A DNA stretch of 64,000 nucleotides from Albidovulum sp. (GTDB taxonomy: Bacteria > Pseudomonadota > Alphaproteobacteria > Rhodobacterales > Rhodobacteraceae): positions 1-64,000 of the forward strand of contig WFVA01000077.1 of NCBI GenBank assembly GCA_015491895.1, written 5' to 3'. The number at the start of each line of letters is the position of its first letter. Position 1 is the stretch's first letter. Made by a program: the position numbers and the translations under genes. The notes under the pieces are model-generated. The model was not told the DNA's origin. It searched no databases and saw only the letters and a list, made by a program, of their open reading frames with translations. This document shows, in pieces, positions 444 to 41,262 of this stretch.

Positions 444-2858
444 TTAGATGTCCGGTGAGCCAGAGACCGGATCATCCGGTACTAGCGGAATTGCCTTTAT
501 CAGATTCTCTATCGTGGCGAGTGAATATTCACTACCTTTCAGCAATTGACGGTAATCAAGGAGGCTTTCATGTTTTGTGTTGGCGTTTTCGTCTGCGAGC
601 AGTTTCATGTTATCAGTCGCCATTTCTGCAATAAGTTTCCTTGGCCCGGAACTGGCCTCGTGGAGGCGGTTCCACCGGTTCATTTTTAACAGCATGCTCT
701 GAAACGCTGATTGATTTCCAGCTTCATTATATAGGGTTGCGGCAAGATCGAAATTTGAAAGAGATTCTGCGGCCTTTGCCTTCAGCAGGAGAGCATCCCT
801 GCTTCGCGCTTCCGCCAAAAGATCCATAGCTACTTCTGGCAGATCCATGGCAATCGCTGCACGCGCCTTGAGCATTTCTTGCTGGCCCTTGTCATCCTGC
901 ACCATTTCAAGAAAATCGCTTCCCAGGTCTGGAAAACCAAACTCGATCAGCCTGGCAGCTGCCGCTTCGAACGCCGCCCCGGCGGCTTCAACTTGCAGCA
1001 GATGCTGCTTTGCACCAAAAATGAATATCAGGAACTTCTGACTGGATTCCTCTTTCGTGGCGAAATCGAGCAATCTTTCAAGCAATTCGTCTGCTTCCTT
1101 GCGGGATACGGAGGAATGTGACGAATATCTGCGCCACTCCCTCAAAGCAGAAGCAAGCCTCCCGCGCGAAGCCAGGGCTTGAATATTAAGGCCGAGTAAT
1201 ACTTTTCCTGTTTCGGTTGCTCCACGCTCGGAAGCCAAAGCAGCAGACATTTCGATAAGTTCGTCTGATATCATATCGCCATGTTCAAGCTTGGTTTCCA
1301 TAAGCTTGCGAAGAGCCTCGGCTGACAGCACCTGATTCGATCTGACAATATCTTCAAGTTTCCTTTCGGTTCTTCTTATGGCATCTCTGTCTCGCGGGAA
1401 GTCGGCCTCCATCAATACGATCCTGCTGTCTTCCGCATCTGCAACACGCAAGATCGCACTTTTGAGAGCGTGCGCCATTTCCTCATCGCCCGATGCAAGG
1501 AAGCGGTTGACGAGTCTCGGGCCAAGATGGCGGCGGGTATGTGCCGGCAATGCAGAGAATGCTCTTTGTATTGCCTGGCGATTCATCTTGAGGCCGCGGG
1601 GAAATTCGGGAAGTGAGAGGGCAGCCCATAGTGCCCCCTCTGTTTCGCAGCTAATCTGATTGCTCAATTCGGCTCGCTCGAATGCCCAGCCATCATCCAT
1701 AATTTCTGCCATTGCCAGGAGGATCTCGGCATGTTCTGGTTTTTGACTGAAGGCCGAAATAACATTTTTGGCTTCGACTCCGAAACCGGCGTATAGATAA
1801 GCCATCGCAAGAGTGGACACATCTTCCGGCAAAACCTGATCGAACTCACCCACAAGGTCTGCCCTGGCAAGGATAACGGATTCATAGGGGGCGGAAGGAT
1901 CCCCCCAAGACGGCAGATCAAAGACGTTTCCGGGCAGGCAGGTCTTTCCGTTTGCGTTGAGCTGGATTTGATGTTCATTCCCAACAGGAGAGGCATCATC
2001 GATACTCGACCGGACCCGGACCGGAAGCCTGCGTTCGGCCGTTTCTTCAGAGGGCCTCTCGCTCCCTTCATTTTCCATGTCAGGATTTGCATCAATGTTT
2101 GGGGCCCGTTTCTCGCCCGCCTGCTCAGGATAGGGGATCCTCGCATTTGGGGTAAGCAGGCCTTCAGTTGCTGCCTTGGCGATGACGGAAAGAAAATCAT
2201 TTCCCATTTCCCGGATCTCAGGAGGTTTGAAAGAAGGAAGCAATACTTCAGGGGTTTTTCGCCGTGTCTCCATCAGAAGCGGCAGTGAAACAGTTTCAGC
2301 GGATTTTTCATTTGATCGTGCCAAAGGCAATTTTACCGGCTCCGAGGGTCTTTGAGAAATCTCGTGAGGCGCACCGGATGCTGGCAGGATGCCTGAGATA
2401 CTTCCTTGTGGTTCGAGATTGGCACCAAGGGTGGCAGGAAGATTTATGATCTCGTCTCCGGAGAATGCCTGCTCGAAGGCAGCATTTTCGTCAGGCGGGC
2501 CGTCCTTGATATCAACAACGAGCAGCCCGGGGCGGAACTCGAACGCGTCCGCATGGCATTCACAACCCAGTTCGATGACGATGCCAGAATGATTCTGGCC
2601 ATGGGTTTCGGCGAGATCACGAATTCTTTTTCGTGTGATTTTCTGGAATACCTTGCTGAGATCAAATGTCATATCCGTATTTTGAATGCGTAACTCGTAA
2701 GCATCGCCCACACGCCCAAGCTGCCAACCTACAGAATTCGAGAAGGGGAAAACGAGCCTCGAAAAGCCGGCATGATCTCCAGATCTTACAGTTATCGTTT
2801 CTGCTCCCACGGGCAGTGGCAACAAGATGATCAGCAGGATGATCGTTCGTACCATCAT
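444..2858 (-). CDS. Large exported protein of the motA operon (804 aa, function unknown)
   Basis: I do not recognise a named family. Residues 1-19 form a signal peptide (hydrophobic LLIILLPLPVGA, then AE), so the protein is probably periplasmic. Residues about 20-120 look like a small beta-rich, AMIN-like module (HAGFSRLVFPF, GIVIELGCECHADAFEF, LLVVDIKDG). A low-complexity linker rich in Pro, Glu and Ser follows to about residue 290. The rest is predicted alpha-helical with Ala/Leu-rich repeating segments resembling TPRs. Its start overlaps the motA stop by 4 nt (ATGA), so the two are translationally coupled and a stator or flagellar role is likely. It is not the rhizobial MotB/MotC/MotD by any motif I can see. 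Its sequence looks more AT-rich than the housekeeping genes at 10-30 kb. Confidence 0.75.
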   Translation of the reverse strand: MMVRTIILLIILLPLPVGAETITVRSGDHAGFSRLVFPFSNSVGWQLGRVGDAYELRIQNTDMTFDLSKVFQKITRKRIRDLAETHGQNHSGIVIELGCECHADAFEFRPGLLVVDIKDGPPDENAAFEQAFSGDEIINLPATLGANLEPQGSISGILPASGAPHEISQRPSEPVKLPLARSNEKSAETVSLPLLMETRRKTPEVLLPSFKPPEIREMGNDFLSVIAKAATEGLLTPNARIPYPEQAGEKRAPNIDANPDMENEGSERPSEETAERRLPVRVRSSIDDASPVGNEHQIQLNANGKTCLPGNVFDLPSWGDPSAPYESVILARADLVGEFDQVLPEDVSTLAMAYLYAGFGVEAKNVISAFSQKPEHAEILLAMAEIMDDGWAFERAELSNQISCETEGALWAALSLPEFPRGLKMNRQAIQRAFSALPAHTRRHLGPRLVNRFLASGDEEMAHALKSAILRVADAEDSRIVLMEADFPRDRDAIRRTERKLEDIVRSNQVLSAEALRKLMETKLEHGDMISDELIEMSAALASERGATETGKVLLGLNIQALASRGRLASALREWRRYSSHSSVSRKEADELLERLLDFATKEESSQKFLIFIFGAKQHLLQVEAAGAAFEAAAARLIEFGFPDLGSDFLEMVQDDKGQQEMLKARAAIAMDLPEVAMDLLAEARSRDALLLKAKAAESLSNFDLAATLYNEAGNQSAFQSMLLKMNRWNRLHEASSGPRKLIAEMATDNMKLLADENANTKHESLLDYRQLLKGSEYSLATIENLIKAIPLVPDDPVSGSPDI

Positions 2859-3724
2859 GCCGCCTCTTGCTTGACGGATTTTAATGCTTCCTCCAGCTCG
2901 CCAAAACTGGGTCTGTAATGGCCTGGAGCATTCTGGCGGCCGACTTCAATACAGATATTCGTTGCGTGATTGTGCAGATTTGCGACCAGCACTTCGCGAA
3001 TGAGCTGATAAAAGTGTGAATCTTCTTCAACGATGTGGCCGATCTTCGCGCCGAGCGGGCCGACAATGCCATATGCGAGAAAAATTCCCAGAAACGTACC
3101 GACAAGGGCACCTCCGATCATCTTGCCAAGCACTTCGGGCGGCTGATCGATGGAACCCATCGTTTTCACAACACCAAGAACGGCCGCGACAATGCCCAGG
3201 GCCGGAAGGCCATCCGCAACCGCCTGTAATGCATGGCTTGAATGAAGCGCTTGCTCAAGATTGGATTCCATCCGTTTTTCGAGCACCTCTTCAACCTGAT
3301 GCGGATCGTCGTAGTTCATGGATGCGGAACGAAGCGTATCGCAAATGAGAGCTATCGCCTCCTTGTCTTCAAGAATCCTCGGGTAACGGGTGAAGATGGA
3401 AGATTCTTCCGGGGCCTCGATATGCTCTTCAAGGGCTACCGGGTTTTGCCGGGCCATGCGGATCAATTCGAACAGGAGGCAGAGAAGATCACGGTAATCT
3501 TCAGGTTTCCATTTTGCCCCCTTGAACGCCTTGCCGAGATCCTTGGCCGTATGTTTTACGGTTGTCATGTCATTGGAGATCATGAAGGCGCCGACAGCGG
3601 CCCCGCCAATGGTGGCCATTTCAGCCGGCAAGGCCCCAAGAACGATACCGATATCACCGCCGTGCAGGATATACACGCCGAACACGCAAACAAAGATGAG
3701 GATAATGCCGACTATGCTGCCCAT
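2855..3724 (-). CDS. motA: Flagellar motor stator protein MotA
   Basis: MotA forms the proton-conducting stator with MotB and pushes on FliG at the rotor. The 289 residues have the family layout: two N-terminal membrane helices (about 2-22 and 30-50), a charged cytoplasmic loop containing ELIRMARQNPVALEEHIE, then two more helices. The conserved prolines are present in ADGLPALGIVAAV and YGIVGPLGAKIG. The start is backed by GGAGGAAACAGC directly before the ATG. No motB is in the window, so the partner must lie elsewhere. The downstream 804-residue gene overlaps it by 4 nt. Confidence 0.95.
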   Translation of the reverse strand: MGSIVGIILIFVCVFGVYILHGGDIGIVLGALPAEMATIGGAAVGAFMISNDMTTVKHTAKDLGKAFKGAKWKPEDYRDLLCLLFELIRMARQNPVALEEHIEAPEESSIFTRYPRILEDKEAIALICDTLRSASMNYDDPHQVEEVLEKRMESNLEQALHSSHALQAVADGLPALGIVAAVLGVVKTMGSIDQPPEVLGKMIGGALVGTFLGIFLAYGIVGPLGAKIGHIVEEDSHFYQLIREVLVANLHNHATNICIEVGRQNAPGHYRPSFGELEEALKSVKQEAA

Positions 3725-3804
3725 GCTGTTTCCTCCATCAGAGAATTGCGCTTACCTGACCGCATCATTCCAGAAGACAATTAACAATCCCTCATTGCCG
3801 GTGC

Positions 3805-4416
3805 TCAATCCGGTGGTACGTTTGCGTTCCTTCCGGCAAGCACGACGCTGATGGTATATGCCTTCTTCGGATCCAGGCTGGCGAGAATTGCTGCGGCGGC
3901 ATCGGGGCGCATTCTGCTGAGAAACCCTGCGGAAAATTCCGGGTCCATCGCCTCGAAAACGGCTGCCGCGGCTTTGGGTTTCATGTTTTCATACATGGCT
4001 GTGAGCCTGTTGATATCTTCTTCTGCGGCGTTGTCGGCCAGGGCGATCGTCTTCTCCAGTTCGGCCTGAGCCTGCTTGAGCGAAGCAATTTCCCGATTCA
4101 CCCTTTCTTCCACGACCTCCAGCATCTTCAATCTTTCCTCCAGAGCGGCCTCGCGCCGCTCGATCTTGGCCTCACGCTCTCGCAGCACCGCAAGCAGCTC
4201 GTCGATACCTTCCGGCATTTCGCACGTTTCCGGCTCGGTCGCGGGAAAAGGCGCGTGATTCTCTGCCAGGCGACCGATGCTCTCGGCAATTGCCGCACCC
4301 GTTCCATCGGCAAGGCGCAGGATGCCGGACACCAGAAACAGCGCCGCGATCAAGGTAAGGGCGCCGCGTGATGACCTGCGGCGCGGCCCCTCCCCCCGTT
4401 CCTTCCGCGCAATCAT
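3805..4416 (-). CDS. MotE-like flagellar protein (MgtE N-terminal-like domain)
   Basis: This 203-residue protein has a basic N-terminus, one membrane/signal segment at about 19-36, a long charged coiled coil at about 70-130, and a C-terminal part (NMKPKAAAAVFEAMDPEFSA, then MRPDAAAAILASLDPKKA). The C-terminal part resembles the MgtE N-domain found in MotE, a periplasmic chaperone of the motor protein MotC in rhizobia. Here the context is fliL, a DUF6468-like gene and motA, and no MotC is seen, so the partner is unknown. It overlaps the upstream gene by ATGA. An 80-nt gap separates its stop from motA. Confidence 0.75.
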   Translation of the reverse strand: MIARKERGEGPRRRSSRGALTLIAALFLVSGILRLADGTGAAIAESIGRLAENHAPFPATEPETCEMPEGIDELLAVLREREAKIERREAALEERLKMLEVVEERVNREIASLKQAQAELEKTIALADNAAEEDINRLTAMYENMKPKAAAAVFEAMDPEFSAGFLSRMRPDAAAAILASLDPKKAYTISVVLAGRNANVPPD

Positions 4417-30257: not shown

Positions 30258-30755
30258 ATGGCCGAAAAGGGCGAAAAGCCGCAGGAACAACAGCCCCAGC
30301 AGATCAAGATGCAGGTGCTTGCGCAATATATCCGCGATCTCTCGTTCGAGAATATCGTTGCGCAGAAGGGTGTGGGCGGTGAAGTCACCCCCGAGATCCA
30401 GGTGCAGGTCAATCTCGATGCGAAGAAGCGCTCCGTCGAACACCAGTATGAAGTGATCATGAAATTCAACATCACTTCGAAGAACAAGGAAAGCGGTGAT
30501 CCGCTTTTCATCCTCGAGCTCGAATATGGCGGGATCTTCCATATCGAGAACGTGCCGGAAGAGCAGATGCATCCCTTCCTGCTGATCGAATGCCCCCGGA
30601 TGCTGTTTCCCTATGTGCGGCGTATCGTTGGCGATGTCACGCGCGATGGCGGCTTTCCGGCGCTCAATCTCGAAAACATCGATTTCCTGGCGCTCTATCG
30701 CAGCGAACTGCAACGCCGCGCCCAGGAGGAAGCCAAGGACAAGCCCGTCTCCTAA
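30258..30755 (+). CDS. secB: Protein-export chaperone SecB
   Basis: SecB holds unfolded preproteins and passes them to SecA. The 165 residues contain the family blocks MQVLAQYIRDLSFENIVAQK, TPEIQVQVNLDAKKRS, FILELEYGGIFHIENVPEEQ and LLIECPRMLFPYVRRIVGDV. A CAGGAG site precedes ATG 30258. The stop overlaps the convergent dnaQ stop by 4 nt. Confidence 0.97.
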   Translation: MAEKGEKPQEQQPQQIKMQVLAQYIRDLSFENIVAQKGVGGEVTPEIQVQVNLDAKKRSVEHQYEVIMKFNITSKNKESGDPLFILELEYGGIFHIENVPEEQMHPFLLIECPRMLFPYVRRIVGDVTRDGGFPALNLENIDFLALYRSELQRRAQEEAKDKPVS

Positions 30756-31447
30756 TCGAGCTTGTTCCAGAGCGCGTCCGGGCCCAGCGCCGCGATAAAT
30801 GCCTGATGCGCCGCGGCCTCTTCCGAGGTGGTACGCGGCGCAAGGGGAGCAGGGCGCGGGGGGGCGGTCTGCCTGCCGGGCTCATTGCTTGAATCGGTTT
30901 CTTCCTGCGGCGAGTGCGAAAGCCCGAAATCCGGCTGACGCCCGCCGATAAGCTCAAGATAAACCTCGGCGAGGATCTGGGAATCCAGAAGCGCACCATG
31001 GAGCGTGCGGGCGGAATTGTCTATGCCGAAGCGGCGGCAAAGCGCATCCAGCGAAGCCGGGGAGCCGGGAAATTTGCGCCGCGCGATTGCCAGAGTATCG
31101 ATGGCGCGAGACATGGGCAGAGGCTCGATTCCGATCCAGCCAAGCTCGGCATTGATGAATTTCATGTCAAAGGATGCGTTGTGGATGATGAGCGGCGCAT
31201 CCTTGATGAAATCGAGAAAATCGCGGGCGATATCAGCGAAAACGGGCTTGTCTGCCAGGAATTCATCCCCCAGCCCATGCACCTCGAAGGCCGATTGGGG
31301 CATGGGGCGCTCGGGGTTGATATACTGGTGATAGGTTTTGCCGGTGGGCATGTGATTCCACAGCTCGAGCGCACCGATTTCCACGATGCGATCACCGCTT
31401 TCCGGCTCAAAGCCGGTGGTTTCGGTATCAAGCACGATCTCACGCAT
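30752..31447 (-). CDS. dnaQ: DNA polymerase III epsilon subunit (proofreading) DnaQ
   Basis: DnaQ is the 3'-5' exonuclease of the replicase. The 231-residue protein starts MREIVLDTETTGFEPESGDR with the ExoI motif DTETTG. ExoII lies in LIIHNASFDMKFINAELGW, and ExoIII in RTLHGALLDSQILAEVYLEL (HxxxxD). The C-terminal tail (from about residue 185) is Pro/Ala-rich and contains the probable alpha-subunit contact. The start at 31447 gives a normal N-terminus and overlaps coaE by 8 nt. It is the last gene of the maf-aroE-coaE-dnaQ operon. Confidence 0.96.
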   Translation of the reverse strand: MREIVLDTETTGFEPESGDRIVEIGALELWNHMPTGKTYHQYINPERPMPQSAFEVHGLGDEFLADKPVFADIARDFLDFIKDAPLIIHNASFDMKFINAELGWIGIEPLPMSRAIDTLAIARRKFPGSPASLDALCRRFGIDNSARTLHGALLDSQILAEVYLELIGGRQPDFGLSHSPQEETDSSNEPGRQTAPPRPAPLAPRTTSEEAAAHQAFIAALGPDALWNKLD

Positions 31448-32045
31448 CGGCCAGATTCTCCCTGATCTCTTCGATGAGCTCGCGCACCTGACGCGCGGCA
31501 TTTTCCGGCGTGTCCGTAATGATAACGTGATCGGCACGCAGGCGCTTTTCTGCATCCGGCATCTGGCGGGCGAGGATCTTATGCAAGGTTTCCTCGCTCA
31601 TGCCGGGGCGGGAAAGCACTCGCCGGCGCTGCTCTTCCTCCGGGGCGCTGACAACCACGACCGCATCGAATTCCCCTTCGCTTCCTTTCTCGAACAGAAG
31701 CGGAATATCGAAAACGAGAATGGGCGCCGCGCTGCCACGGATGAAATTTTCGCGATCAGCGGCAACCAGCGGATGGATCTGCTCCTCGAGCCTCGCGAGC
31801 GCGTCCGGCTCCCGCATCGCCCAGCTGCGCAGAACCGCGCGATCCACCGCGCCATCGCGGACCGCCTCGGGGCAGACACGTCGAACCGCATCGACACCCG
31901 CGCCGCCTTTTGCATACAGCCTGTGCACGGCCGCATCCGCATCCCAGACGGGTATGTCTTCATTGGCGAAAATTCTCGCCGTCGTGCTCTTTCCCATGCC
32001 GATCGAGCCGGTCAGAGCCAGAAGGAACGGCCTTTTTCCGCTCAT
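31440..32045 (-). CDS. coaE: Dephospho-CoA kinase CoaE
   Basis: CoaE phosphorylates dephospho-CoA, the last step to coenzyme A. The 201 residues have the P-loop LALTGSIGMGKSTTARIF, VWDADAAVHRLYAKGG (substrate acid), VFDIPLLFEKGSE and VVVSAPEEEQRRRVLSRPGM. Its ATG overlaps the aroE stop by 4 nt, confirming the start against the longer open frame upstream. Confidence 0.96.
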   Translation of the reverse strand: MSGKRPFLLALTGSIGMGKSTTARIFANEDIPVWDADAAVHRLYAKGGAGVDAVRRVCPEAVRDGAVDRAVLRSWAMREPDALARLEEQIHPLVAADRENFIRGSAAPILVFDIPLLFEKGSEGEFDAVVVVSAPEEEQRRRVLSRPGMSEETLHKILARQMPDAEKRLRADHVIITDTPENAARQVRELIEEIRENLADA

Positions 32046-32875
32046 GCCAGCACCGCCCGGCGCAAGGCATCGTCCACCTCCGGACGCATGCCGAACCACC
32101 GCTCGAAGCCCGGAACGGCCTGATGCAGGAGCATCCCGAGGCCATCTACCGTCCGGCATCCCCTTTCTTGCGCGGCGCGCAGGAAATCGGTGATCAGCGG
32201 CGCATAGACAAGATCGGTCACCACCGCATCCTTCTCGAGCGCATCAAGCGGGATCTTCAGCTCCGGCTGGCCGACCATGCCGAGGGATGTGGTGTTGACC
32301 ACCGTTTTTGCGCCTTCCAGCATCCCGCCGGCCTGCACCCATTCATGGACGACGATCTTCGGGCCGAAATCGGATCTGAGCGCCTCGGCGCGCGCACGGG
32401 TGCGATTGGTGAGGCGGATCTCGCTGACACCCGCCTCGATCAGCGAGGCAATCACGGCGCGCGCCGCACCGCCGGCACCGACCACGGCAGCGGGGCCTGC
32501 CTTCGGATCCCAATCCGGCAGATTCTGATGCAGATTTTGCAGGAAACCGCAGCCATCCGTGTTATCGGCATGAACGCTGCCATCCTCACGAAAGATCAGG
32601 GTATTTGCCGAGCCTATAAGCGCCGCGCGATCCGTTACCTGATCGGCCAGCTCAAGCACCGCTTCCTTGTGGGGGATGGTGACGTTCACCCCCACAAATC
32701 CCATCTTTGGCAATGCCTTGAGCACCTCGGCAAGATCCTGATGAGCGATCTCCAACGGAATGTAATGGCCCTTGATCCCGTAAGTTTTCAGCCAGTGGCC
32801 ATGCAGTGCGGGCGATCTGCTGTGCGCGATCGGCGAGCCGATCACACCGGCAAGCGGTATTTTCTCGCTGCTCAT
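32042..32875 (-). CDS. aroE: Shikimate dehydrogenase AroE
   Basis: AroE reduces 3-dehydroshikimate with NADPH in the shikimate pathway. The 277 residues show substrate-binding IGSPIAHSRSPALHGHWL and the catalytic Lys in GVNVTIPHKEAVLELAD. The nucleotide loop is VVGAGGAARAVIASLIEAGV, followed by NRTRARAEAL, and the C-terminal motif is DGLGMLLHQAVPGFERWFG. It overlaps maf and coaE by 4 nt on each side. Confidence 0.97.
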   Translation of the reverse strand: MSSEKIPLAGVIGSPIAHSRSPALHGHWLKTYGIKGHYIPLEIAHQDLAEVLKALPKMGFVGVNVTIPHKEAVLELADQVTDRAALIGSANTLIFREDGSVHADNTDGCGFLQNLHQNLPDWDPKAGPAAVVGAGGAARAVIASLIEAGVSEIRLTNRTRARAEALRSDFGPKIVVHEWVQAGGMLEGAKTVVNTTSLGMVGQPELKIPLDALEKDAVVTDLVYAPLITDFLRAAQERGCRTVDGLGMLLHQAVPGFERWFGMRPEVDDALRRAVLA

Positions 32876-33471
32876 GATTCAATCACTCCCCGGACAGCCA
32901 GAAAATCCAGAAGCGGCAGAAGCGGCAATCCGAGCACGCTGAAATAATCTCCGTTCACCTCCCGAAACAGCCGCACGCCTTCCTCTTCCAGCTTGTAGCA
33001 TCCTACCGCTTCACGGATACTATTCCAGTTTCTTTCGATGTAATCATGAAGATATTCATCCGAAAAATCCCGCATGACCATGCGCACCACGCCAACATGG
33101 CGCCACTGCGCCTCGCCTTGGTGATAGACAACAGCAGCGCTCAGGAGCTGGTGCGATTGGCCGCGCATACGTGAAAGAAGCTCAAACGCCTCTTCCTTCG
33201 TTTCGCATTTTGATATGATTTCGCCTCTGAACGACAGCACCTGATCGCTGCCAATGATGAGCGCCTCGGGATATTTCAGGGAAACTTTCCGGGCCTTGGC
33301 ATCCGCAAGGACATCAGCCACATCCCTTGCCGGTGCACCTTCTGCAAGAAGTGCGTCTCGAAGCTGTTCTTCATCTACGCGCGCCTGTACGGATCGGAAA
33401 TCGACACCGGCATTTTTCAAAAGCTCGGCACGGATCCGCGATGAGGAAGCGAGGATCAGAGGTGTATCCAT
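32872..33471 (-). CDS. maf: Maf-family nucleotide pyrophosphatase
   Basis: Maf proteins hydrolyse non-canonical or excess nucleoside triphosphates. The 199 residues begin LILASSSRIRAELLKNAGVD and contain the catalytic-acid region EALIIGSDQVLSFRGEIISK, plus the C-terminal GDYFSVLGLPLLPLLDFLA. I chose ATG 33471. It is the first gene of the leftward operon that reads away from the origin. Confidence 0.94.
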   Translation of the reverse strand: MDTPLILASSSRIRAELLKNAGVDFRSVQARVDEEQLRDALLAEGAPARDVADVLADAKARKVSLKYPEALIIGSDQVLSFRGEIISKCETKEEAFELLSRMRGQSHQLLSAAVVYHQGEAQWRHVGVVRMVMRDFSDEYLHDYIERNWNSIREAVGCYKLEEEGVRLFREVNGDYFSVLGLPLLPLLDFLAVRGVIES

Positions 33472-33589
33472 GTGCACTATCCTGTGGGAAAGAACTGCTG
33501 GGGAAGAGGGATGAAAATGTGCAATTCGCCACTCACCCCCACTTGTGTTGAAAAGCATCGCCACTCATGAACGTCATGCTCTCCTTTTC

Positions 33590-33790
33590 TACTGTTGACA
33601 AGGAAAAGCCTGCGGTTGTGGACAGAAGGATCCATTGCTTCTTTTCCACAAGGTCATAAAAATGTTCCTCTGAAAATATATCTGATTTTACTACTCTTTT
33701 GGAAGTACTCCCTGTTATCCATAACCTGGGGATAACTTTTTACATGCTTTGGATAACCTGTGTATTGAACGATAATCCCCAGATATCGGC
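33590..33790. other. oriC: Chromosomal replication origin (oriC), candidate
   Basis: The 390-bp gap between maf and hemJ has no plausible gene and is clearly AT-rich. Four sites match the DnaA box TTATCCACA with one mismatch: TTTTCCACA (33642-33650), TTATCCATA (33715-33723), and, on the minus strand, TGGGGATAA (33727-33735) and TTTGGATAA (33748-33756). Weaker sites lie at 33593, 33617 and 33773. A run rich in A and T (33651-33710) between the first box and the cluster is a possible unwinding element. maf-aroE-coaE-dnaQ and hemJ-rho read away on either side, and parS, parA and parB lie within 7 kb. This is the origin context known from Caulobacter and its relatives. hemE and the PPDK-regulator gene, often beside oriC there, are absent. 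Confidence 0.82.
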
Positions 33791-33861
33791 CCTCCAATAA
33801 CTACAACATTTCCTTTTCATATATCTTCAATTAGAAGAGCGGCGAAATCGGAAGGCTGGAA

Positions 33862-34314
33862 ATGATGTCGGATGTTCTTGCGGAAATTTACCCATGGGTG
33901 AAATCTCTCCATATCGTTTCCGTGATTTCCTGGATGGCCGGGCTTTTCTATCTGCCGAGGCTTTTCGTTTATCACGTCGAATCCGTCACTCCTGAAAGCG
34001 AAACATATGCCCTCTTCCTGAAAATGGAGCACAAGCTTCTGAAGGTGATCATGACTCCGGCCATGATTGCTTCTTGGGTTTTCGGGCTGATGCTTGTGGC
34101 TACACCGGGGATTGTCGATTGGTCACAGTTGTGGCCCTGGATCAAGGGTGCGTCCGTCATCGGAATGACGGCATTTCATTTCTGGCTTTCGCGGCGGCAC
34201 CGTGATTTCAGGGCGCGGAGAAATGATCTTTCCGGACGCGGCTACAGGATAATGAACGAAGTGCCGACGATCCTCATGCTTCTGATCGTGTTTTCGGTAA
34301 TTCTGAAATTCTGA
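33862..34314 (+). CDS. hemJ: Protoporphyrinogen IX oxidase HemJ
   Basis: HemJ oxidises protoporphyrinogen IX in haem synthesis in bacteria lacking HemG and HemY. The 150-residue protein has four membrane helices and the family pattern: PWVKSLHIVSVISWMAGLFY with the conserved His, LPRLFVYHVES with a second His, MEHKLLKVIMTPAMI, and NEVPTILMLLIVFSVILKF at the C-terminus. ATG 33862 or 33865 are both possible. It is the first gene on the right side of oriC; haem genes are common there in alphaproteobacteria. Confidence 0.92.
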   Translation: MMSDVLAEIYPWVKSLHIVSVISWMAGLFYLPRLFVYHVESVTPESETYALFLKMEHKLLKVIMTPAMIASWVFGLMLVATPGIVDWSQLWPWIKGASVIGMTAFHFWLSRRHRDFRARRNDLSGRGYRIMNEVPTILMLLIVFSVILKF

Positions 34315-37031: not shown

Positions 37032-38912
37032 TTGTTTCACGTGAAACAACGCGATTTCGATGTCATTGTTGTCGGTGGTGGACATGCCGGCTGTGAGGCG
37101 GCTCATGCGTCTGCGCGTATGGGGGCGCGCACGGCCCTCATAACGCTTTCACATAACGCCATCGGCGTAATGTCCTGCAATCCTGCCATCGGGGGATTGG
37201 GCAAGGGTCATCTTGTCCGCGAGATTGACGCGCTGGATGGCATCATGGGCCGCGTTGCCGATCGTGCCGGCATTCAGTTCCGGCTTCTGAATCGGACGAA
37301 GGGGCCGGCTGTTCAGGGTCCACGCGCCCAGGCAGATCGCTCTATATACAGGGCAACGATGCAGGAAGCGATGACAAGCCGGGAAAACCTTCAGATCATC
37401 GAAGCCGAAGTATCGGAGCTGTTGATTGAGGGGCCGGTTGTTTCAGGGGTTCGACTCTCCGATAATTCGGAGATCTTCGCCGGCGCTGTCATTCTCACCA
37501 CCGGCACATTTCTTCGCGGGATCATACACATTGGCAACAAATCCCTGCCGGGCGGGCGGATGGGTGACAAGCCGTCAATCCGCCTTGCGGAGCAGGTAGA
37601 AGACATGGGCTTTACCGTTGGGCGCCTTAAAACAGGAACCCCGCCACGCCTTGCCGGCCGCTCGATAAACTGGGAAATACTTGAAGCACAGGCGGGGGAT
37701 GACGAGCCGACGATGTTTTCCTTTCTTCACAGGAAACCATTCGGTCGCCAGATATCCTGCGGCATTGCGCACACGAACGAAAAGACCCATGAGATCATCA
37801 GGGCCAATCTCGCATCATCGGCGATGTATGGTGGTATGATCGAAGGGATCGGCCCGCGGTATTGCCCTTCCATAGAAGACAAGATCGTGCGGTTCGCAGA
37901 CAAGAGCTCACATCAGATTTTCCTTGAGCCGGAAGGGCTTGAGGATGATACCGTGTATCCGAACGGCATCTCCACATCACTTCCTGCGGAAGTCCAGGAG
38001 GAATACGTTCGTTCGATCCGGGGGCTAGAGAATGCAATCATTCTTCAGCCCGGCTACGCCATTGAGTATGACTATATTGATCCCAGAGCGCTCAAGGATA
38101 CGTTGGAGGTGAAGGATTTTTCCGGCCTGTTTCTTGCCGGGCAGATCAATGGGACAACGGGCTACGAAGAAGCCGCTGCTCAGGGGCTGGCCGCAGGCCT
38201 GAATGCAGCTCTTTTGGCCCGTGGCGGGGATCTCGTGCGCTTCAGCAGGTCCGATTCCTATATTGGCGTGATGATCGATGATCTCGTTACGCGGGGCGTC
38301 AGTGAGCCCTACAGAATGTTCACCTCACGCGCTGAATTCCGCCTCAGCCTGCGTGCCGATAACGCCGATCAACGCTTGACTCCGAAGGGTATCGCCGTTG
38401 GCTGTGTCGAGGATCATCGCAGACTTGAGTTTGAACGGAAAATGGAAGCCCTGCAGAAGGTGCGCCACGCTCTGGAGCGGGCGAGCTTCACGCCGCGCCA
38501 ATTACAGAACCGAGGCATAAGGATACGCCAGGACGGGGGCAGGCGTGATGGCATAGCCGTTCTTTCCTTGCCCGGTGCAAGCCTCGTAAAGCTGGCCGAT
38601 ATCATGCCAGAATTGCGCTCAATACCACAATATATAGCGCAGCAAGTGGAGAGAGAGGCCATATACGCCAATTATATCAAGCGCCAACAGCGGGATATAG
38701 AGGCGTTAGCGCGTGACGAATCGCACGAAATACCGGGCGATTTTGATTATCGTTCCTTGAGCGGGCTTTCAAATGAGCTTCGCCTGAAGCTTGAAAAGGT
38801 GAGGCCATCTACCCTTGGCCAGGCCGGCCGGATCGAGGGGATGACGCCTGCCGCCCTCACGCTGATTCTCGGCAGGCTTCGCCAATTGGAAAAGCAGCGC
38901 AGGGCAGGATGA
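37032..38912 (+). CDS. mnmG: tRNA U34 carboxymethylaminomethyl synthase subunit MnmG (GidA)
   Basis: MnmG is the FAD/NADH partner of MnmE. The 626 residues contain the FAD motif [20 protein letters not shown], the family blocks [20 protein letters not shown] and [40 protein letters not shown], and the C-terminal GidA helical domain ([20 protein letters not shown]). It starts with TTG at 37032, 3 nt after the mnmE stop; its first six codons (MFHVKQ) are written by a parS site. Confidence 0.97.
37033..37048. promoter_or_regulatory. parS: parS centromere site (in mnmG start)
   Basis: TGTTTCACGTGAAACA is a perfect palindrome identical to the classic chromosomal parS consensus bound by ParB. It overlaps the start codon of mnmG. 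parA and parB lie 2.5-3.3 kb downstream and oriC about 3.3 kb upstream, the expected context. Confidence 0.93.
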
Positions 38913-39538
38913 AGCTCTCAGGTCCCGAGCAATTTTTGGATGTTTTCAATGTTTCACGTGAAACAATCGATCGCCTGCAGATTTATGAAAATCTCCTGAA
39001 GAAATGGAACCCGAAAATCAACCTCGTTGCCCGGGGCACCTTGGGAGATGTCTGGACGCGACATTTTGCGGATTCAGCGCAAATATCTGACATTGCGCCG
39101 GAAAATGCCAGAATATGGGTTGATATGGGTAGCGGCGGCGGTTTCCCCGGGGCTGTGCTGGCTATCATGAACAAGGAAAAACGCCCCGAAGCAAAGTATT
39201 ATCTTGTCGAGAGTGATAAGAGAAAGGCCGCGTTCTTGCGGGCCGTGGCGCGCGAAACAGGGGCTGATTTCATCGTATCCGACCAAAGGGCCGAGGATAT
39301 CCCGCCTTATGGGGCCGATGTCGTTACCGCGAGGGCTTTGGCGCCGCTGGAAATGCTTGTCGGCCTTGCCGGCCGTCATCTTGCGCCGCATGGTGTTGCG
39401 ATATTGCCGAAAGGTGCGAATGTGGAAAATGAAATCGAAACAGCCCTTGCCTTATGGCGATTCGATCTGGAAAAGTTTCCGAGCGTGACGGATCCTTCCG
39501 CCGCCATCCTGAAGCTTGGAGATATACGGAATGCCTGA
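38909..39538 (+). CDS. rsmG: 16S rRNA G527 N7-methyltransferase RsmG (GidB)
   Basis: RsmG methylates G527 of 16S rRNA; its loss gives low-level streptomycin resistance in several bacteria. The 209 residues show the family start ([40 protein letters not shown]), the SAM loop [18 protein letters not shown], and [20 protein letters not shown]. It overlaps mnmG by 4 nt and parA by 8 nt. A parS site encodes residues NVSRET. Confidence 0.96.
38950..38965. promoter_or_regulatory. parS: parS centromere site (within rsmG)
   Basis: This is a second perfect copy of TGTTTCACGTGAAACA, 1,917 bp after the first. It lies inside rsmG and encodes part of FNVSRET. Two sites so close to parA and parB make a strong ParB-loading zone. 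Confidence 0.93.
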
Positions 39539-40361
39539 CCCTGCAGGGCGCCGAGGCCCTAAAATCATCGCCATTGCAAATCAGAAAGGGGGGGTCGGCA
39601 AGACCACGACAACAATCAATCTGGGCGCCGCCCTCGCGCAGGAAGGCTTCCGTGTTCTTCTCGTTGATCTTGATCCCCAGGGCAATGCCTCGACCGGGCT
39701 GGGAATCGAGCCGGAAGAGAGGGATCTGAACGTGTATGATCTGCTTGTCGGGGAGGCGGACCTGAAGGATATTGTCAGGGAAACCGGGACGGAGCGCCTT
39801 CATATCGTGCCGGCAACCACGGATCTGAGCTCTGCGGATGCCGAGCTGATGGCCAACAAGAAGAGAAGCTTCCTTCTGCACGATGCCTTGCGCCAGCCAT
39901 CAATGAAGGAGGTTGACCCGGATTTTATCCTGATCGATTGTCCGCCTTCTCTCAATCTTCTCACGATCAATGCCATGGTTGCTGCGGATTCCCTGCTTGT
40001 GCCCCTGCAAAGCGAGTTTTTCGCTCTGGAGGGGCTTTCCCAGCTCATGCTGACAAAACGCGATGTGGCCCGGGCCGCAGGGCGAAACCTTCGCTATGAG
40101 GGCATCGTGCTCACGATGTATGACAGCCGAAACCGGCTTTCGCGCCAGGTCGAGGCTGATGCACGGGAAAATCTCGGGGATCTTGTGTTCAGGACGGTCA
40201 TACCGAGGAATGTGCGCGTGAGCGAGGCGCCTTCATTCGGGATGCCTGTGCTCGAATATGATCCAGGCTCGAAGGGGAGCCTGGCCTATCGGGCTCTGGC
40301 AAGGGAGCTGGCAGAGAGAAACAATCGCAAAGTGAGAGAAAGGGAGGCCGCAAATGGCTGA
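39531..40361 (+). CDS. parA: Chromosome partitioning ATPase ParA
   Basis: ParA is the Walker-type ATPase that moves ParB-parS complexes. The 276 residues contain the deviant Walker A motif IIAIANQKGGVGKTTTTINL, LLVDLDPQGNASTGLGIE, LIDCPPSLNLLTINAMVAAD and PLQSEFFALEGLSQLMLTKR, as in chromosomal (type Ib-like, Soj) ParA without an HTH domain. ATG 39531 overlaps the rsmG stop; a TTG at 39516 is an alternative. Confidence 0.97.
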   Translation: MPDPAGRRGPKIIAIANQKGGVGKTTTTINLGAALAQEGFRVLLVDLDPQGNASTGLGIEPEERDLNVYDLLVGEADLKDIVRETGTERLHIVPATTDLSSADAELMANKKRSFLLHDALRQPSMKEVDPDFILIDCPPSLNLLTINAMVAADSLLVPLQSEFFALEGLSQLMLTKRDVARAAGRNLRYEGIVLTMYDSRNRLSRQVEADARENLGDLVFRTVIPRNVRVSEAPSFGMPVLEYDPGSKGSLAYRALARELAERNNRKVREREAANG

Positions 40362-41262
40362 CAAGAAGCCAGAAAGGCGTGGTTTGGGGCGCGGGCTCTC
40401 CGCCCTCATGGCGGATGTCAGCCCGGCGAGGGAGGGTTATGAAGATACGCCGACGCGCCCGGCCGAAAGGGTCATCCCGATCGAGAAGATCATGCCCAAC
40501 CCCGATCAGCCCCGGCGTGATTTTGATCAGGACGATCTGCGAGAGCTGGCGGATTCGATCCGGGAAAAAGGGATCATTCAGCCCCTGATCGTCAGGGAAA
40601 AACCAGATAAATCAGATGGTTACGAGATTGTCGCGGGGGAGAGGCGCTGGCGGGCGGCACAGATGGCGCAATTGCATGAGGTGCCCGTCATCATTCGCGA
40701 TTACAGCGATGCGGAAGTGCTGGAAATTGCGATCATCGAGAATATCCAGCGAGCGGATCTCAATCCGGTGGAAGAGGCATCCGGTTACCGTCAGCTGATG
40801 GAGGCGTTCGGACACACCCAGGAAAAGCTGGCCGAGGCGCTGGGCAAGAGCCGGAGCCATATTGCAAATCTTCTGCGCTTGCTCAATCTCCCGGAGGAGG
40901 TGCTGGGGTATCTTCGTGAAGGCCGCCTCACCGCCGGCCATGCCCGCGCGCTTGTTACGGCCGAGGATCCAGCCGCGATTGCGCGCGAGGTGATCCGCAA
41001 GGGGCTTTCGGTCCGTGAAACCGAGCGCTTGGTGAAGAGGCCGAAGGGGGATCGGAAAAAGCCACAGAGGGAAACGGTGGAGAAGGATGCTGATACGCGT
41101 GCCCTCGAGGCGGACCTTTCCGCCAATCTCGGCATGAAAGTTGCAATCAATCACCGGCCGGGCGGCGAAAGCGGAAGCATCACGATTTCCTACAAGACGC
41201 TCGAGGAGCTCGACGATCTCTGTCGCTTTCTTACGGCTACGCGTCAGGCCTGGACAGAATGA
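40354..41262 (+). CDS. parB: Chromosome partitioning CTPase ParB
   Basis: ParB binds parS and spreads along DNA. The 302 residues have the N-terminal ParA-contact segment (KKPERRGLGRGLSALMAD), the CTP-binding domain with MPNPDQPRRDFDQDDLRELA and IVAGERRWRAAQ, the helix-turn-helix region (TQEKLAEALGKSRSHIANLL, RLLNLPEEVLGYLREGRLTA, GHARAL) and a C-terminal dimerisation domain. It overlaps parA by 8 nt. Its 3' end overlaps the convergent gene at 41237 by 26 nt. Confidence 0.97.
   Translation: MADKKPERRGLGRGLSALMADVSPAREGYEDTPTRPAERVIPIEKIMPNPDQPRRDFDQDDLRELADSIREKGIIQPLIVREKPDKSDGYEIVAGERRWRAAQMAQLHEVPVIIRDYSDAEVLEIAIIENIQRADLNPVEEASGYRQLMEAFGHTQEKLAEALGKSRSHIANLLRLLNLPEEVLGYLREGRLTAGHARALVTAEDPAAIAREVIRKGLSVRETERLVKRPKGDRKKPQRETVEKDADTRALEADLSANLGMKVAINHRPGGESGSITISYKTLEELDDLCRFLTATRQAWTE

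Follow-up and report, generated by a model that had tools for sequence, protein, structure and literature searches.

The genes hemE and the PPDK regulator flank the replication origin in Caulobacter, and in Rickettsia too. In Caulobacter crescentus, this origin (Cori) lies between hemE and COG1806, and contains DnaA, CtrA and IHF sites (PMC1914354). In Rhodobacteraceae, oriC is conserved beside maf according to DoriC, for example, in the predicted oriC of Ketogulonicigenium vulgare Hbe602 (PMC4793288). The basal unwinding system (BUS) of Bacillus subtilis consists of DnaA boxes, a spacer and DnaA-trios, 3'-GAT-5' (PMC8287927, PMC10721633); in DnaA, Arg202 and Glu228 bind the guanine of a trio, and Asn187 and Glu183 bind its middle adenine (PMC10721633). 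A survey of BUS in 2,070 species required 3'-NAN-5', which was found in 85% of origins, with none in the other 15%; spacer lengths peaked around 10-13 bp, the published relaxed rule was at least three NAN triplets no farther than 16 bp from a box with up to two mismatches, and the authors suspected deviant trios, e.g., those without the middle adenine (PMC8287927).

We analyzed a window of 64,000 bases, contig C77 of a 2.79-Mb assembly (166 contigs, 93.6% complete) of a Rhodobacteraceae bacterium, in which a sequence-only reading had placed a replication origin at 33590-33790, between maf and hemJ. The intergenic gap between these genes (33565..33861, 297 bp) is almost certainly the chromosomal oriC, at the usual place of the family, as indicated by a cluster of DnaA boxes, AT-rich DNA, a local switch of GC skew, parS and parAB nearby, and the same position in relatives. 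A maf-adjacent oriC is already in print for Rhodobacteraceae (PMC4793288); thus, this origin is a routine, well-supported annotation and a new instance of a known thing. It shares with the origin of K. vulgare Hbe602 the family, the neighbor gene maf and the kind of evidence (skew and DnaA boxes), and nothing essential differs, although a triplet array, which in our view matters more than the annotation of the origin, is not mentioned in the accessible part of PMC4793288.

The gap is flanked by maf on the left (32872..33564, minus strand) and by hemJ (UPF0093) on the right (33862..34314, plus strand), both identified by Pfam. The start used for the maf reading frame is a GTG at 33564, 31 residues ahead of the likely ATG, and the Pfam match to Maf starts at residue 35; therefore, the noncoding gap may extend over 33472-33861. 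The GC content of the gap is 0.397, compared to 0.52-0.67 in 2-kb steps across the window, in agreement with the earlier description of the gap as AT-rich. The gene directions given earlier likewise agree with the Pfam matches: maf, aroE and coaE run leftward, whereas hemJ, rho, mnmE, mnmG, rsmG, parA and parB run rightward, and the frame called dnaQ (30752-31555) matches an RNase_T exonuclease. The right end of the proposed interval, 33790, was set too short: the part conserved in the family extends to about 33839, and this edge cuts off the last DnaA box, the spacer, the triplet array and the T-rich tract. Rfam elements and tRNAs were not found in the 64-kb window. An 804-residue open reading frame at 444-2858 (minus strand) has no Pfam match at E 1e-5.

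Scanning the window for the DnaA box TTATCCACA with at most one mismatch, we obtained 17 sites in 64,000 bases. Four of these are inside the gap, all with one mismatch: TTTTCCACA (33642..33650, plus), TTATCCATA (33715..33723, plus), TTATCCCCA (33727..33735, minus) and TTATCCAAA (33748..33756, minus). The sequence-only reading had the positions and counts of these boxes right, including the three that span 42 bp (33715-33756). In a sister species (L010), the first box of these three is a perfect TTATCCACA, and the third is identical to that of the window. Boxes with two mismatches are found at 33593, 33617 and 33773. In 100 dinucleotide shuffles of the gap, the mean number of boxes was 0.11 and the maximum was 2; the 13 other sites in about 63.7 kb of the window predict 0.06 boxes per 297 bp, so that the probability of four by chance is about 1e-6. 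The cluster in the gap thus exceeds the chance expectation.

The cumulative GC skew of the window reaches its minimum at 33828, a position within the gap. The skew to the left and right of 33700 is -0.048 and +0.065 over 5 kb, and -0.056 and +0.054 over 30 kb. A search for a sign switch elsewhere, run over the window and sampled stretches of three relatives, left the proposed origin in place, with the change of sign at hemJ in all three relatives. In a genome of the same genus (G002), nine of ten 20-kb stretches starting left of hemJ were negative and ten of ten to the right were positive. In G016, for which the sampling reached 2.72 of 4.33 Mb, the skew was negative in eight of nine 20-kb stretches before hemJ and positive in 10 of the 11 stretches from there onward. 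In G006, a sparse sample had 3 negative stretches out of 20, located 0.09-0.45 Mb past hemJ, and suggested a switch about half a megabase off hemJ; a dense sample countered this, since of the 18 stretches that it took from hemJ onward, 17 were positive and one was negative, and the two stretches before hemJ were negative. Single named loci of 16-20 kb had the skew minimum within 700 bp of the hemJ start in only 6 of 13 cases and away from hemJ in the other seven (L012, L013, L016, L017, L022, L023 and L026); because of this disagreement, short stretches alone are poor skew evidence.

Two perfect parS sites, TGTTTCACGTGAAACA, are located at 37033..37048 and 38950..38965, 3-5 kb from the gap; the assembly has no others at two or fewer mismatches. 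They are followed by parA (39516..40361, plus) and parB (40354..41262, plus), both identified by Pfam, so that a maf-hemJ gap close to parAB is found here, as is expected of a maf-adjacent origin in Rhodobacteraceae. Proximity of parAB was a criterion for oriC placement in 101 of 109 genomes (PMC6699656). The dnaA gene of the window genome is on another contig, C26. The gap could be only a DnaA-regulated promoter region, with the origin elsewhere on the chromosome, and a similar cluster of DnaA boxes does occur upstream of uvrC in the same genome; however, the skew minimum in the gap, parS and parAB, the family-wide position and the skew switch in three relatives make this reading highly improbable. 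A plasmid or chromid origin of the sequence was rejected: none of the 49 matching plasmid records covers 80% of the query, and in the 10 records listed, of the 49, the match is limited to the rho part.

The arrangement is typical of the family. The search with HemJ yielded 17 named loci, the closest being a Rhodobacteraceae metagenome-assembled genome with 87% identity, and matches in 49 of 61 further relatives, the own genome included. Among 30 loci with hemJ, 28 belong to the same family, and maf is located across the gap from hemJ in 26 of the 28; of the other two, L046 has aroE without a match to maf, and L047 has hemE there. In two of the 26 (L050 and L052), the gap is 1.1 kb long, and its content may be of another kind. 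HemJ also has a good match in two more genomes of the family, G011 and G020, which are outside the 28 loci. L025, L047, L055 and L056 yielded no maf-hemJ gap. The 44 gap rows were reduced to 40 distinct gaps of Rhodobacteraceae and close relatives by dropping L027, L028 and L029 (duplicates of the window, L010 and L011) and L026 (Sneathiella, with hemE inside); a set of 37 gaps additionally omits L046, L050 and L052. Of the distinct gaps, 38 of 40 contain at least one DnaA box at one mismatch and 29 contain at least two; the gaps of L023 and L031 have no box at this level. In the control, the hemJ-rho spacers (44 rows, 6,543 bp), there are no one-mismatch boxes.

The gap resembles Caulobacter Cori in DnaA boxes, AT-rich DNA and the maf and hemJ-rho sides of the same gene neighborhood, which is also found in another alphaproteobacterium (L026), and differs from it in the absence of hemE, the COG1806/PF03618 gene and the CtrA consensus. 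The absences noted earlier are real: hemE of the window genome is on contig C67, adjoining hemC (porphobilinogen deaminase), and PF03618 has no match in the 93.6% complete assembly. In the gap, the CtrA motif TTAAN7TTAA is absent even at one mismatch, and neither TTAACCAT nor GANTC was found. From these absences, a possibly different mode of control had been suggested, but anything special here is not supported, since relatives are alike: hemJ lacks hemE as a neighbor at 27 of the 28 family loci, and thus its absence is the family arrangement, and 34 of 37 gaps, that of the window included, have no full CtrA consensus. In other Alphaproteobacteria (e.g., G037, G051, G056 and G041), clusters of DnaA boxes are located directly upstream of hemE. 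One locus of the same family by filing (L047/L191, G007) keeps hemE beside hemJ and has Phe for Tyr at DnaA residue 187; this arrangement may be the state before hemE left the origin. Next to hemC-hemE on C67 (L001), there are an autoinducer synthase (PF00765) and a LuxR-type regulator (PF03472, PF00196), at 2724-3365 and 3486-4013.

Over the 37 gaps, there are 6 sites with the full CtrA consensus compared to 0.8 expected, all in three gaps (L020, L035 and L038), and 38 one-mismatch sites were found in 15 of the 37 gaps compared to 19.4 expected, an excess that makes control by CtrA elsewhere in the family possible. The frequency of GANTC was at the chance level (70 sites versus 78.6 expected), and TTAACCAT was found in 0 of 37 gaps. 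The exact IHF consensus was present in 9 of 37 gaps (9 sites versus 1.1 expected); the gap of the window has no exact site, and its one-mismatch site at 33773 (minus) is at a level often expected by chance. On these counts, CtrA, GANTC and IHF sites were rejected as conserved elements of the family. The window genome itself does encode CtrA, with a match to the Rhodobacterales type at 430.7 bits (cut-off 350); in the Rhodobacterales studied, loss of CtrA is harmless to growth, and CtrA influences replication in some of them (PMC8116508).

In the alignment of the 37 gaps, the most conserved block is at and beyond the right edge of the earlier interval. It consists of the last DnaA box, followed in many gaps by CCTACA(A)CATCATCATC and a T-rich tract. 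In the window, the last box before the array is TAATCCCCA (33773..33781, plus, two mismatches); TAATCCACA is found 87-104 bp before hemJ in 8 of 40 gaps, and the box of the window is 89 bp before it. The box is followed by a 10-bp spacer, GATATCGGCC (33782..33791), a degenerate triplet array, CTC CAA TAA CTA CAA CAT in the top strand (33792..33809, plus), which we propose to be deviant DnaA-trios, and a T/A-rich tract with AT 0.73 (33810..33839), the proposed site of first strand opening; a T-rich tract is also present in relatives. The array is clearer in relatives than in the window: for example, the sister species L010 has CAA CAA CAA CAT at this place. The order of box, spacer of about 10 bp, triplet array and T/A-rich tract is that of the B. 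subtilis BUS (PMC8287927, PMC10721633), and the lower-strand G at every third base in many relatives is a further likeness, whereas the middle adenine is not kept in most alphaproteobacterial arrays.

It should be noted that the array of the window follows neither the strict CNN rule nor the published NAN rule, and that AT-rich DNA of the kind expected for unwinding, with AT 0.73-0.77 over 30 bp, occurs at two places in the gap. The second of these, 33655..33700, is the most AT-rich part of the gap (AT 0.77 in 30 bp, compared to 0.73 in 33810-33839). Opening could therefore take place here, next to box 33642, the array being something else, and the relaxed trio rule, for which the array gives no match, indeed matches behind two other boxes: this one, with a spacer of 11 and a run of 3, and the two-mismatch box 33617-33625 of the minus strand, with a spacer of 8 and a run of 4. 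However, in AT-rich DNA, NAN runs of these lengths (3 and 4) are weak matches, and 33655-33700 has almost no invariant columns among four gaps of the same genus, compared to more on the side of the last box and array, so that we place opening at 33655-33700 on the unlikely side.

To compare arrays among genomes, we calculated the longest run of the same base at every third position. The strongest signal was for C: in 40 gaps, the mean longest run was 4.50 versus 2.87 in shuffled sequences (z 12.3), with T (z 8.6), A (z 5.5) and G (z 4.0) also in excess; farther left in the gaps, the C run showed no excess (z 0.8). Ten other alphaproteobacterial origin regions were inspected by eye for CAA, CCA or CTA arrays behind the last box. 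Clear arrays are present in G037, G051, G041, G044 and G058; those of G056, G045, G048 and G007 are shorter or interrupted, and none was seen in G050. Another set comprised 60 regions upstream of hemE, one genome per family and none of the ten, hand-picked before the sequence was seen from the 152 of 192 genomes with a match; some families were skipped, and not every region need be an origin. In this set, the C run was 4.90 versus 3.72 (z 8.9), with z 4.3 for A and z 2.5 for T, and in the control 450-700 bp upstream, z was 3.3 for C and 3.1 for G. The array statistics were designed after the pattern had been sighted, and the 60-region set is independent in sequence, not in hypothesis.

Defining an array as consecutive C-first, G-free triplets (3'-GNN-5' in the lower strand), we found arrays of at least five triplets in 13 of 40 gaps (0.9 in shuffles) and in 27 of 60 hemE-upstream regions of other families (1.7 in shuffles); the corresponding numbers for at least four triplets were 23 of 40 (4.8) and 33 of 60 (10.2). 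The top-strand triplets are CAT-rich in Rhodobacteraceae, and CTA, CAA or CCA elsewhere. The middle base in arrays of at least four triplets was A in 68, T in 37 and C in 15 triplets of the gaps, and A in 65, T in 60 and C in 59 triplets of the other regions. Three consecutive NTN triplets in any phase, i.e., canonical NAN trios in the lower strand, were absent from 12 of 23 gap arrays and from 30 of 33 others. Runs of at least five that start no more than 16 bp after a box (up to two mismatches) were present for C in 18 of the 60 regions versus 5 with the downstream DNA shuffled once, and in 12 versus 4 of the 40 gaps; for T, the numbers were 6 versus 6 and 11 versus 8, respectively.

The array might also be a leader element of the downstream gene, acting in translation or attenuation, rather than a part of the origin, given that, in the sequences read, a start codon follows it within about 150 bp. 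In addition, its presence ahead of hemE does not go along with the count of strict DnaA boxes: arrays occur in 13 of 31 regions with at least two boxes, 5 of 15 with one, and 9 of 14 with none. Against a leader function, the array is found ahead of hemJ if the origin is at hemJ, and ahead of hemE if the origin is at hemE. In the 300 bp upstream of hemJ at 19 other loci, taken as a non-origin control (two of which, L174 and L177, are family genomes with the origin not located), an array of at least five triplets was found once, and upstream of the own hemE of the window genome, there is a run of only two triplets, compared to the 13 of 40 gaps and 27 of 60 regions above. A leader element is thus clearly unlikely. 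In 20 genomes from other classes of the phylum, few dnaA neighborhoods were origin-like; one of the 20, L280, has a CNN run of six after a box, so that the array may also occur outside Alphaproteobacteria. In the AT-rich origin regions of L179 (G058) and L182 (G044), (CAA)5 is followed by a TAGTAGTAG-type repeat just upstream of hemE.

With the trio position and polarity, the G kept and the middle adenine mostly absent, the alphaproteobacterial arrays would be deviant DnaA-trios, a reading that comes from sequence comparison. The reference structure used for DnaA, PDB 8btg, is presumably that of the B. subtilis protein, with residue numbers from the paper. Compared to it, DnaA of the window genome keeps Glu183 and Glu228, and differs by Tyr for Asn at 187 and Lys for Arg at 202. 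Residue 187 is Tyr in 30 of 30 family loci (L142-L171). Among 20 further loci (L192-L211), 17 from other families of the class and three (G007, G011 and G017) from the own family, it is Tyr in 16, Phe in 2, Leu in 1 and Arg in 1. In the 20 genomes of other classes, residue 187 is Thr (7), Ala (5), Gln (4), Ser (2), Asn (1) or Leu (1), and 19 have Lys at 202. Because Asn is not general outside the class (1 of 20), the change from Asn187 to Tyr was rejected as the explanation of the lost middle adenine. The aromatic residue appears to be a class trait, perhaps of single origin, which leaves its link to the array only suggestive; residue 187 weakly supports the idea of deviant trios.

Taken together, we consider it evenly balanced whether alphaproteobacterial origins, that of the window included, are opened via a 3'-GNN-5' array that retains the captured guanine, leaves the middle adenine free, and is read by a DnaA with an aromatic residue at the adenine-contacting position 187. 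In the window, DnaA would bind the boxes at 33642-33756 as well as the last one at 33773-33781, and the oligomer would extend across the spacer to the lower strand of the array (33792-33809) and open the T/A-rich tract (33810-33839), where the helicase would be loaded; forks would then leave both ways, and ParA-ParB-parS would segregate the copied origins. The hemE and PPDK-regulator genes are no longer at this origin, with hemE now beside hemC on another contig. If true, the reading by way of a 3'-GNN-5' array would give the deviant trio without the middle adenine that the BUS authors, in the accessible text, only suspected (PMC8287927). An array that keeps G, but not A, at the expected place in many alphaproteobacterial families offers a concrete motif for a strand-separation assay, and would show how far the base-reading rule of an initiator can drift. 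Among the literature matches listed, no title was on alphaproteobacterial DnaA-trios, the match for DnaA-trio and alphaproteobacteria being a paper on epsilonproteobacteria; the supplementary tables of the BUS survey may list alphaproteobacterial entries.

A separate observation concerns uvrC. The pattern TTATCC..GGATAA..GGATAA occurs twice in the 2.79-Mb assembly, in the maf-hemJ gap and just upstream of uvrC, where it marks a second cluster of DnaA boxes (G000:C24:47963-48011; L057, L300). A perfect TTATCCACA in the same orientation is located 51-138 bp before the uvrC start in 18 of 20 loci of the window genome and relatives (including L301-L319); it is at 226 bp in L316 and absent from L309. 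It is possible that this reflects a conserved DnaA-controlled repair gene or a site of DnaA titration.
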